From positions 1 to 64,000 of the forward strand of contig NZ_RCCJ01000001.1 of assembly GCF_003664005.1 (NCBI RefSeq): DNA of 64,000 nucleotides. Direction: 5' to 3'. The notes below the pieces were generated by a model, which did not search any database, was not told the DNA's origin, and was given only the letters and a program-made list of their open reading frames with translations. This DNA comes from Hydrogenivirga caldilitoris. GTDB taxonomy: Bacteria; Aquificota; Aquificia; Aquificales; Aquificaceae. Both the position numbers and the translations under genes were made by a program. Of the stretch, positions 44,338 through 49,200 are shown piece after piece; position 1 is the first letter of the stretch; each line of letters opens with the position of its first letter.

Positions 44338-45972
44338 TTATATTTCTCTCGCCACCCTGTTCTTTCCTGTCTTCTTGGCTATGTATAGGGCTTTGTCCGC
44401 CCGGAGGATCACATCCTCAGCATCTTTGTCTTCTCCCTGCCCCTGAGCCGCTCCTATGCTAACCGTTAACCTGATCGTTTCCTCGCCCGCCGAGAACCTG
44501 TGCAACTCTATTCTCTTCCTTATATTCTCGGCAGCCCTCAGGGAACCACTTAAGGGTGTAGAGGGCAGTATGGCTAAGAACTCTTCACCACCGTATCTGA
44601 ACACCATGTCCGAGTCCCTTAAGGTTTCCTTTATGAGCCTTCCAAGCTCTGCCAGCACCCTGTCCCCCACCTGATGTCCGTAGTTATCGTTTATTTTCTT
44701 GAAGTCGTCTATGTCTATCATAAGCACCGATACAGGCTTTCCTAAAGCTAAGAACCTATCTATGACCTCTTTACCAAATTCATCAAAAGCTCTCCTGTTG
44801 AAAACGCCCGTTATGTTGTCCATGTAAGCCTTACCTGTATAGACCTCTATCTCTTTGGAAAGGACGTTTATGTACTTCTCAATCTCCTTTGCCATATCAA
44901 GGATTGCGGACTCTATCGCACCAAACTCATCCCTTCCAAGGGAAGGGGTTTTGGGAAGCTCGTGAAACTTTCTCTTCTTTATTAGCTCAGTGAGGGCATA
45001 GAGTTTCTCCACCTTTGCGGACACCCTGCCCAGGGAAAGGACAGAGCCTATGAATATAGCCACCAGCAGGGGAATGTAGCTTCCAAGCAGGCTCTTTAAA
45101 CTGTCTAGAGCCAGGTTTGCCGAGAGGGAACTTACGTCCTTGTATGTGAAAAAGTAACCTATCTCCCTCTCTGAGAAATCCTCTATGGGCACGTTACAAA
45201 GGAAGAAGGGTTTGTCCTCAACCTTAACCTTAAGAGACTTACCGGAGAACTCAAGAGCACCGACGAGGTCCTTAGTTCCTCCCTGCAGGCTCACAAGGTA
45301 TTCCTCTTTTCTGACCGTTTTGGAGGTGTACGCCATGTAGCTCTCCTTTAAGAGGGAACGCTTTAGTGCTTCATCCTTGATGGCAAGTCCGCATCCTGTT
45401 CCGGTTATTGAGCTGTAGTACCTTAAAAAATCCTCCATGTCTATACCTACCGACACCAAGCCTATAGCTTTTCCATCCTTAGTTATTGGGTTTACAGCCC
45501 TTATGCCCACATAGTTCGTGCATATGATTATTGATTTTGTGGTGATGCAGTTCTTCCCCGACTCAACCACATCTCTTCTTATTCCTGTGACGTCCCTCCC
45601 AGATTCTCTTGGGTTCCTCATGTTGAGGAAGTTAACTGCAGGCAGCTTGAAAAAGCTTATCTCCCTTATAAGGTTCTCCCTGCTTACCTCCTCGTAAAGG
45701 GGTTTCAGCTTCAGGTATAAGCCTTCTTTATCACCCGACTCAAAGAGCTTCCTTACATCACTGTCCCTTGCTATGTACGAGGATACTGAGTTGGCAACCC
45801 TTTTATGGAACTCAACGAGCTTGTTGAACTCAAAGGTGCTCTTTTCACAGAAAGACTCCTTCTCCTTTTTGAGAAGCTCTCTGTACAACTCAAACTGGTG
45901 GTAAGTGACCAAAGCAGTGGTAAGGGTAAAGGCAGTTACAGTAAAGAGGAAGACCTTTTTACGCAGCGTCAT
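44338..45972 (-). CDS. Membrane diguanylate cyclase with periplasmic Cache-type sensor
   Basis: This is a 544-residue protein with an N-terminal helix (KVFLFTVTAFTLTTALVTY), a large periplasmic region of about 270 residues that looks like a Cache sensor, and a second helix near residue 300 (YIPLLVAIFIGSVLSLG). HAMP-like sequence and a GGDEF domain follow, with GGEEF at 461-465 (FRYGGEEFLAILP). The inhibitory RxxD site is intact (RDSD five residues before GGEEF). It should make c-di-GMP in response to an external small molecule. It lies 21 bases after lysS. Confidence 0.9.
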   Translation of the reverse strand: MTLRKKVFLFTVTAFTLTTALVTYHQFELYRELLKKEKESFCEKSTFEFNKLVEFHKRVANSVSSYIARDSDVRKLFESGDKEGLYLKLKPLYEEVSRENLIREISFFKLPAVNFLNMRNPRESGRDVTGIRRDVVESGKNCITTKSIIICTNYVGIRAVNPITKDGKAIGLVSVGIDMEDFLRYYSSITGTGCGLAIKDEALKRSLLKESYMAYTSKTVRKEEYLVSLQGGTKDLVGALEFSGKSLKVKVEDKPFFLCNVPIEDFSEREIGYFFTYKDVSSLSANLALDSLKSLLGSYIPLLVAIFIGSVLSLGRVSAKVEKLYALTELIKKRKFHELPKTPSLGRDEFGAIESAILDMAKEIEKYINVLSKEIEVYTGKAYMDNITGVFNRRAFDEFGKEVIDRFLALGKPVSVLMIDIDDFKKINDNYGHQVGDRVLAELGRLIKETLRDSDMVFRYGGEEFLAILPSTPLSGSLRAAENIRKRIELHRFSAGEETIRLTVSIGAAQGQGEDKDAEDVILRADKALYIAKKTGKNRVAREI

Positions 45973-47715: not shown

Positions 47716-47721
47716 ATTATA
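47716..47721 (-). promoter_or_regulatory. -10 box directly before lysS
   Basis: TATAAT on the minus strand ends 9 bases before the lysS ATG, and the TAA stop of the upstream roadblock-like gene is part of this hexamer. Transcription would begin about three bases before the start codon. No good -35 box is seen. Confidence 0.4.
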
Positions 47722-48412
47722 AAGCCTCTTCGTCTACAATGCTCAGAGCGGTTTTAACAAATCTCTCTGCCCTGTCAAGAGAATCTATCTCTTGGGTTAG
47801 GTAATCTATAAGCTCGTAAGCGTCCTCCTTTGTCAGGAGGTTTCTGTTGAAGCGTTTCTCAATTATCACTGCATTGAAGATGTAATCTCCTGCAGGTCCT
47901 ATCTCGTTGATAAAGGTGTCCTTCAAAGCTTCTATTTGGTGGGGGGAGAGATACCTCTTCTTTCTCCTTACCTGTTTTAGCTCCCCTTCTTTCTCCTTCT
48001 GTTCAACGTACCTTCTCCTTGAAATTTCTTTCAGCTCGCTTAGAACATCCGTAAACTGCCTCAACTCCTCAACTACGCCACCCATACCGTAGAGGACTTT
48101 TGCCGCGCCTACTCGCTTTGGGAAGAGACCTATGACGTAGAGCTGAGGGTTCAGCACACCAATGTAGTAGTAATACTTACCAACATCTCCGAAGGAGAAA
48201 TCAGGAGGACTTTCGGAGTTTCCAGTATCAAGGGTGGTAAAGCTTATGGCTGTTGTTTCAAGCCTCTGGAGCCATCTTCTAACAAAGTTATCTTCAGTAT
48301 CCGCAGAGTATACACTTAAAAACCCCAGCACATCCTGGACAGCTATGAAGAGGGCACCTGTTCCTTGTCTTGCCCTATCAAGGGCTATCTTGAGCTCTTC
48401 TTCAGGACTCAT
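47717..48412 (-). CDS. Roadblock/LC7-like protein of unknown function
   Basis: This 231-residue soluble protein falls into two parts. Residues about 1-120 look like a roadblock/longin fold (GALFIAVQDVLGFLSVYS, YYYIGVLNPQLYVIGLF and a closing helix GGVVEELRQF). A charged linker (EQKEKEGELKQVRRKKRY) leads to a helical C-terminal domain with the motif FINEIGPAGDYIF, seen after roadblock domains in other signalling proteins. Roadblock proteins regulate small GTPases such as MglA, but none is present here. It overlaps the HAMP protein upstream by 11 bases. Confidence 0.7.
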   Translation of the reverse strand: MSPEEELKIALDRARQGTGALFIAVQDVLGFLSVYSADTEDNFVRRWLQRLETTAISFTTLDTGNSESPPDFSFGDVGKYYYYIGVLNPQLYVIGLFPKRVGAAKVLYGMGGVVEELRQFTDVLSELKEISRRRYVEQKEKEGELKQVRRKKRYLSPHQIEALKDTFINEIGPAGDYIFNAVIIEKRFNRNLLTKEDAYELIDYLTQEIDSLDRAERFVKTALSIVDEEAL

Positions 48413-48815
48413 GCTTCTTTAACCTTCTTATGAGAGCCTTGAGGGATAGTCTCATCCTCTCAAAGGACTCGGCTAGTCTGTTTATCTCTAAATAACGCCC
48501 CTGAATCTCCAGGGGTGTATCAAGGTCTCCCTCACTCATCTTCTCTAAACGTTTTGTCATCTCTTTTATGGGTCTGAGTATCGTCCACTCTATCAGGAGC
48601 TGAATTATCAGTATTGGACCCACAAACCAGCATAGAACGAGGAAAAGAGTTGAACCGAGGGCGTACTTCCAGGCTACCTCTTCCGGAACATCGTTGTTCA
48701 CCAGGGCAAAGAAGAAGACAAAAAACACCAGCACGGCAGCGAGCAGAGACCCTATAAAGACGATATCCAGAATTTTGTAAAGTATGCTCCTGTACTTTTT
48801 ACCTCTTCCTATCAA
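48402..48815 (-). CDS. HAMP-only membrane protein (second of two)
   Basis: This is a 137-residue protein with two hydrophobic helices (about 15-45 and 55-80) with a short periplasmic loop, then a HAMP domain (ILRPIKEMTKRLEKMSEGDL, residues about 80-130) and no output domain. HAMP domains normally pass signals from membrane to kinase, cyclase or chemoreceptor domains. It overlaps the first HAMP gene by 17 bases and the roadblock-like gene by 11 bases. Confidence 0.82.
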   Translation of the reverse strand: MIGRGKKYRSILYKILDIVFIGSLLAAVLVFFVFFFALVNNDVPEEVAWKYALGSTLFLVLCWFVGPILIIQLLIEWTILRPIKEMTKRLEKMSEGDLDTPLEIQGRYLEINRLAESFERMRLSLKALIRRLKKHES

Positions 48816-49200
48816 GCTCTCCCTCCAGCTGGGATATGAGTTCCTTTATGTTAACGCGCATCTTTTCAAAGGCTTCAGCCATATGACCGAACTCGTCGTT
48901 GGTTTCTGGCTTTATGGGTGTTTCCAGGTCTCCCTTGCTTACCCTTTCCATGGCGTCTATCATATGGTCAATCCTTTCAAGTATCAGCTTGTAGAATACA
49001 GCCCTAACGAAAAATATCGGTAGTGTAAAGGCAAGGGTTATAACGGCTGCAGAGAAGAGCATTATCTTAGGTATCTTGTAAGAAGGCACGTCGGTTATGT
49101 TAAGCACCACATAAAGGACACCGAGAGTTATAAGGACGCTGAACAATGAACCAGCGGTAACGTAAACCGTAAGCCTACCCAAAAGCCCCTCTTTTTCCAC
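48799..49200 (-). CDS. HAMP-only membrane protein (first of two)
   Basis: This is a 133-residue protein with two hydrophobic helices and a HAMP domain (DHMIDAMERVSKGDLETPI followed by NDEFGHMAEAFEKMRVNI), again ending shortly after HAMP. The start is a GTG at 49200 with AGGAGG upstream. It resembles its neighbour in layout and in the DLxTPI stretch, so the pair probably arose by duplication. It is transcribed away from rplN. Confidence 0.82.
   Translation of the reverse strand: MEKEGLLGRLTVYVTAGSLFSVLITLGVLYVVLNITDVPSYKIPKIMLFSAAVITLAFTLPIFFVRAVFYKLILERIDHMIDAMERVSKGDLETPIKPETNDEFGHMAEAFEKMRVNIKELISQLEGELDRKR

Follow-up and report, generated by a model that had tools for sequence, protein, structure and literature searches.

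Organization of the gene triplet

The window, i.e., the complete 64-kb stretch of DNA from a heat-loving bacterium that was analysed, harbors three overlapping genes on the minus strand between positions 47717 and 49200, in agreement with the original prediction. The gene HAMP-A (48799-49200, minus strand) starts with GTG and encodes 133 amino acids that comprise a transmembrane (TM) hairpin, whose loop has about 10 residues, and a HAMP domain (48844-48996, minus strand), directly before the end of the protein. HAMP-B (48402-48815, minus strand; 137 amino acids) shows the same succession of TM hairpin, HAMP domain (48438-48590, minus strand) and stop, and its TTG start codon is preceded by GGAGG. 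The third gene (47717-48412, minus strand) encodes a soluble protein of 231 amino acids, a putative adaptor that combines an MglB-like roadblock domain (residues 1-120; 48053-48412, minus strand) with a four-helix STAC domain (residues 153-227; 47732-47956, minus strand).

The end of HAMP-A overlaps the start of HAMP-B by 17 bases (48799-48815, minus strand), and the end of HAMP-B overlaps the start of the soluble protein gene by 11 bases (48402-48412, minus strand). The first overlap comprises 17 bases in four close relatives and 20 in a fifth, and the 17/11 combination is confined to the closest relatives; elsewhere the values are 8/4, 4/4 and 1/4, or an overlap of 4 bases and a 3-base gap. 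The coupling of the genes is conserved across the trio copies, but the exact length of the overlaps is not, and the proposed synthesis of the three proteins in a fixed ratio therefore does not follow from them.

The lysS gene is located directly after the triplet, both in the window and in close relatives. A comparison with reference proteins revealed no gene for a small GTPase, a PF03259-type roadblock protein or a DUF4388 protein in the 64-kb window, which corroborates the earlier statement that no GTPase is encoded nearby. Two genes downstream of the triplet, beyond lysS, the window encodes a dCache_3-GGDEF protein (44338-45972), whose dCache_3 sensor family is also found in one HAMP-ended receptor of the same genome (type 2, see below).

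A pair of membrane proteins that end at HAMP

Both membrane proteins have a Pfam HAMP match (6.9e-13 for HAMP-A, 6.4e-13 for HAMP-B) and terminate 11-14 residues after this domain, thus confirming the initial description of two small proteins that end just past HAMP. Each has two TM helices connected by an outside loop of about 10 residues or less, i.e., neither contains an extracellular sensor domain, and HAMP represents the sole cytosolic part. The best fold matches of HAMP-B are structures of Af1503, the textbook HAMP structure, with 45% identity over 51 HAMP residues; their E-values of 0.01-0.09 are weak, which is no surprise for one helical chain, and in the sequence profile comparison Af1503 and the archaeal transducer HtrII obtain equally high scores.

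A quick maximum-likelihood analysis of 13 copies places HAMP-A, HAMP-B and the HAMP-only family f3 proteins (see below) each on one side of a branch, with SH-aLRT supports of 90, 98 and 97, respectively, and every complete trio copy retains both HAMP-A and HAMP-B. The separate clades are indicative of old and distinct paralogues that were retained together. HAMP acts as a parallel dimer, and the two clades together with their joint retention would fit a heterodimer without proving it.

The association of HAMP-ended proteins with STAC genes extends over the whole genome of the window, which contains nine HAMP matches above the Pfam cut-off. Six of them belong to proteins that end at HAMP; all six are found within the four gene sets that hold the four STAC genes of the genome, and each adjoins a STAC gene or a partner HAMP gene. 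The remaining three are kinases that run on into long C-terminal parts, and none of these adjoins a STAC gene.

The soluble protein combines roadblock and STAC

The soluble protein has no significant match in Pfam or NCBIfam, it does not pass the cut-off of Pfam Robl_LC7 (PF03259), and a profile of the full-length protein found no relative in the PDB. The AlphaFold2 (AF2) model based on 11 sequences (mean pLDDT 82.5) shows a roadblock topology at residues 3-118, from which a long helix leads to a four-helix region (residues 157-227). The order of elements in the roadblock domain is helix-strand-strand-helix-strand-strand-strand-helix, and its top Foldseek matches in the PDB are MglB proteins of Myxococcus and Thermus (E 2e-7, TM-score by target about 0.8), including MglA-bound MglB. 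A joint profile of the N-domains from the trio and family f3 matches MglB over positions 6-124 (7.8e-5). The N-domains of both groups align over their full length (hhalign P 3e-5, probability 72%), whereas a direct comparison of the trio domain with local roadblock proteins gave weak matches (P 0.0015 and 0.12). The roadblock-like N-terminus and the corresponding fold of the original prediction are hence recovered by structural comparison and profile search, even though Pfam misses them. A relationship of the trio N-domain with DUF4388 was ruled out (hhalign P 0.036 over 11 columns).

The helical C-terminus, initially noted for its IGP motif, is a genuine domain, which we assign to STAC based on profile matches to AF1502. 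Profile A3 of this region retrieved the AF1502 structure 5a1q as the sole PDB entry below 0.01 (E 1.1e-4), and the profiles of the trio (0.0049), family f3 (4.6e-4) and the type-2 proteins (0.01) all rank AF1502 first; the four STAC profiles from Aquificota overlap, and the match to AF1502 is short with about 30 aligned residues. The STAC domain of AF1502 consists of two helix hairpins with a nine-residue joint and carries an LGPx(x)A motif (PMC4834066). The AF2 helices of the window protein (157-171, 175-185, 195-207 and 212-227) exhibit the same order and the same nine-residue gap between the second and the third helix as described for STAC (PMC4834066). At the place of the motif, between STAC helices 1 and 2, the window protein has IGPAG and the relatives have variants including MGPVA and MGPIA, which suggests that LGPx(x)A is present in a relaxed form. 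The local motif EIGPA (residues 170-174; 47891-47905, minus strand) contains an invariant E, GP and A in the trio set, and GP is invariant across the classes. An SLC5 transporter or two-component fusion was not detected in the three proteins with Pfam and NCBIfam; such a fusion is not required for STAC and is also absent from the stand-alone AF1502. The assignment of the HAMP, roadblock and STAC domains is well supported and in our view close to certain.

Conservation of the triplet

HAMP-A, HAMP-B and the soluble protein gene are present in the same order in other genomes of the window's genus, and a second, divergent trio is located at 1.427 Mb of the same genome (L101:6205-9054; G000:C1 about 1425.2-1428.1 kb). 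The expectation that the three genes stay together has thus been borne out by the relatives and by a further copy in the genome itself, and the triplet is not a chance arrangement. The two trio families differ in their neighborhood, i.e., lysS on the one hand and genes for tal and a T2SSE ATPase on the other, and no neighbor is constant. The T2SSE (pilus/secretion) ATPase gene is convergent with the second trio and overlaps its end by 4 bases. The nearly complete genomes G001 and G015 have kept the GTPase operon described below but lack the trio, which is therefore accessory. A comparison with plasmid records yielded no match.

STAC genes and GTPase operons in Aquificota

Our survey of Aquificota detected the STAC domain in 83 of 136 genomes (E up to 0.01). 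Of the 50 distinct STAC genes with known gene context, 47 lie next to a HAMP-ended gene of the same orientation, and 30 have a roadblock or GTPase gene as an immediate neighbor, counts that include many close relatives and are not independent. Two operon types recur. Type 1 (family f3, Hydrogenothermaceae-like) encodes a HAMP-only protein, a roadblock-like-STAC protein, a roadblock protein, a DUF4388 protein and a small GTPase, while type 2 (Aquificaceae) encodes a roadblock protein, an MglA-like GTPase, a STAC protein with a different N-domain and a HAMP-ended sensor with dCache_3 or Tll0287. GTPase2 of the window's genome, which belongs to type 2, is MglA-like with an E-value of 3.7e-37 to MglA. 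In the genomes of family f5, a STAC gene is paired with a Tll0287-HAMP gene, and this pair has no GTPase gene next to it. Judged by its HAMP-only architecture and by the N-domain that aligns over the full length, the trio matches type 1.

In the genus of the window, the type-1 GTPase operon stands alone at approximately 433-436 kb, about 385 kb from the trio. It comprises the Robl1, DUF4388 and GTPase genes (G000:C1 about 433.2-434.8 kb), and its head in this Aquificaceae genus is a gene for a membrane protein of 241 amino acids (L102:6802-7527; G000:C1 about 434.8-435.5 kb). The latter protein appears to consist of a TM hairpin, a degenerate HAMP and a coiled coil, and shows weak similarity to the HAMP-only proteins with an hhalign P of 7e-5. 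The pair of DUF4388 and GTPase1 is kept in 17 of 17 genomes of the genus; since GTPase1 is present in every one of them, its joint occurrence with the trio carries no information. The puzzle of a roadblock protein with no GTPase nearby is largely answered by these relatives, as genes homologous to those of the trio head a roadblock-GTPase operon. The tie of the trio roadblock domain to an NTPase is an operon link that exists in relatives only. Neither the trio nor the inspected related operons contain a kinase gene.

A proposed split receptor for a Ras-like GTPase

The domains, homologies, conserved gene sets and GTPase operons of the relatives lead us to propose that the triplet encodes a split receptor, in which a dimer of HAMP-A and HAMP-B would signal via the STAC-roadblock adaptor to a Ras-like GTPase. 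We assign this reading a probability of roughly 55%; the whole chain, from the stimulus and the direction of the signal to the choice of the GTPase, is inferred from homology and gene order. HAMP-A and HAMP-B would constitute the membrane part, probably as a heterodimer given the parallel dimerization of HAMP. In place of a covalently attached output, the STAC domain would recognize their exposed HAMP end with its short tail helix, and the MglB-like roadblock domain of the same soluble protein would relay the state to a small GTPase module of the MglA/Ras type. The most likely partner in the window's genome is GTPase1 from the Robl1-DUF4388-GTPase operon about 385 kb away, since homologous HAMP-only and roadblock-like-STAC genes head this operon in a sister family.

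The main rival is a mere membrane tether, as the membrane proteins lack an outside sensor: the HAMP proteins would hold the roadblock-STAC protein, and via it the GTPase, at the membrane and pass no signal. The TM loop of about 10 residues or less fits this idea, and so do those relatives that keep the GTPase operon without the trio. HAMP is, however, a fold for signal relay, every trio copy retains two different HAMP paralogues, and the type-2 homologues at the same operon place bear dCache_3 or Tll0287 sensors before the same HAMP end, which makes a tether without signalling rather unlikely.

In line with the first proposal for the STAC domain, the HAMP proteins might also be connected via STAC to a transporter or some other membrane protein, with no involvement of a GTPase. 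In CbrA, the SLC5 transporter serves as the docking site of STAC (PMC13022988), the Af1502 operon contains an MgtE transporter (PMC4834066), and the window itself has no GTPase gene. This scenario is nonetheless quite improbable, because no transporter gene recurs beside the trio or the GTPase-linked STAC genes at the inspected loci, the STAC partner bears an MglB-like roadblock domain, and roadblock or GTPase genes are the direct neighbors of most STAC genes (30 of 50). We consider an output encoded next to the trio itself very improbable, be it the type II/IV secretion ATPase at the second trio or the lysS and dCache_3-GGDEF genes downstream in the window. The convergent T2SSE ATPase gene, a type-2 GTPase operon that runs directly into a T2SSE gene and the position of lysS after the trio in close relatives speak for such an output, but the two trio families share no constant neighbor. 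MglA-type GTPases moreover act on pilus ATPases, which would thus fall downstream in the split-receptor model.

Relation to known systems

In Archaeoglobus fulgidus, the gene for the STAC protein AF1502 adjoins that for the receptor Af1503 and is coupled to it in translation; HAMP is the sole cytosolic part of this receptor (PMC4834066). The triplet agrees with this system in a membrane protein that ends at HAMP and a coupled next gene that carries STAC (here with the 11-base overlap between HAMP-B and the soluble protein gene), in the fold of HAMP-B, which best matches Af1503, and in STAC profiles that match AF1502. It differs in its two HAMP proteins, neither with an outside domain, in the fusion of STAC to a roadblock domain as opposed to the stand-alone AF1502, and in the GTPase operons of its relatives in place of the MgtE transporter of the Af1502 operon (PMC4834066). 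The combination of a HAMP-ended receptor with STAC is already known from archaea, and the designation of the triplet as an uncharacterised module is only partly justified, since the HAMP-ended receptor with a STAC partner represents the Af1503/Af1502 arrangement (PMC4834066). Af1503 has no recognisable effector module and nothing after HAMP, and the role of STAC has been described as unclear (PMC4834066, PMC13022988). In CbrA and CrbS, STAC is located next to the membrane domain as a proposed coupler to the output (PMC13022988, PMC5715377); the triplet shares the STAC domain adjoining a membrane part but lacks the SLC5 transporter and the kinase that are united there in a single chain.

The MglA/MglB system of Myxococcus and Thermus corresponds to the roadblock fold of the soluble protein and to the MglA-like GTPase2, whereas in the triplet the roadblock domain shares a chain with STAC and is linked to membrane proteins that end at HAMP. 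The input of Myxococcus MglA comprises the Frz system, response regulators and RomR/RomX. DUF4388, the domain of the type-1 operons, and PATAN are presumably domains of one kind. For some MglA groups, PATAN neighbors are reported in a survey of prokaryotic small GTPases from 2014, and its section on signalling links mentions neither a HAMP-ended receptor nor a STAC partner. The pairing of roadblock proteins and GTPases is known from MglA/MglB and from the conservons (PMC13343842, PMC4316618), whose genes CvnA-D form one operon for a HAMP membrane sensor, a roadblock protein, an additional protein and a small GTPase (PMC13343842). The operons described here have the same four components, but CvnA exhibits histidine kinase features after HAMP, whereas here HAMP is the final domain of the membrane protein, a separate STAC protein follows, and DUF4388 takes the place of CvnC. 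A histidine-kinase-like CvnA is absent from the trio and from the inspected related operons.

The open literature that we searched, with the original description of STAC lying outside it, contains no paper linking STAC or Af1503 to a GTPase and no relevant one joining STAC, SLC5 and roadblock. In the triplet the receptor-STAC pair comes with a roadblock domain, and in relatives with a GTPase operon, which offers a concrete route by which a HAMP dimer in the membrane could reach a bacterial G protein and suggests how receptors without output domain may act on a Ras-like GTPase. Somewhat short of even odds, HAMP-ended receptors could form a class with non-covalent output, in which a STAC adaptor reads the HAMP end and acts on a Ras-like GTPase module. 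It is equally tentative that the complete chain is realized in Aquificota, where STAC carries a roadblock or a different N-domain, and that Af1503 may share this logic. The triplet proteins are likely heat-stable and suited to structural work.

Additional features of the related operons

Several peculiarities were observed in the related operons. The type-2 receptors L100:5578-6471 and L014:608-1504 contain, ahead of HAMP, a Tll0287-type domain that bears the c-type haem-like motif CxxCH, which suggests redox or gas sensing. The family f3 operons (L086, L087, L088, L093, L094, L099 and L104) are preceded by genes for a nucleoside diphosphate kinase-like protein and a membrane protein with DUF4149. 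A much longer linker between the two ends brings the roadblock-like-STAC proteins of genus g22 to 538-605 amino acids (L086:3740-5557, L087:2884-4680, L088:1860-3476). The type-2 operon of G066 (roadblock-GTPase-STAC-HAMP; L097:202-6246) directly precedes T2SSE ATPase and FtsA/PilM-like genes on the same strand, a gene run hinting at a pilus or secretion output.
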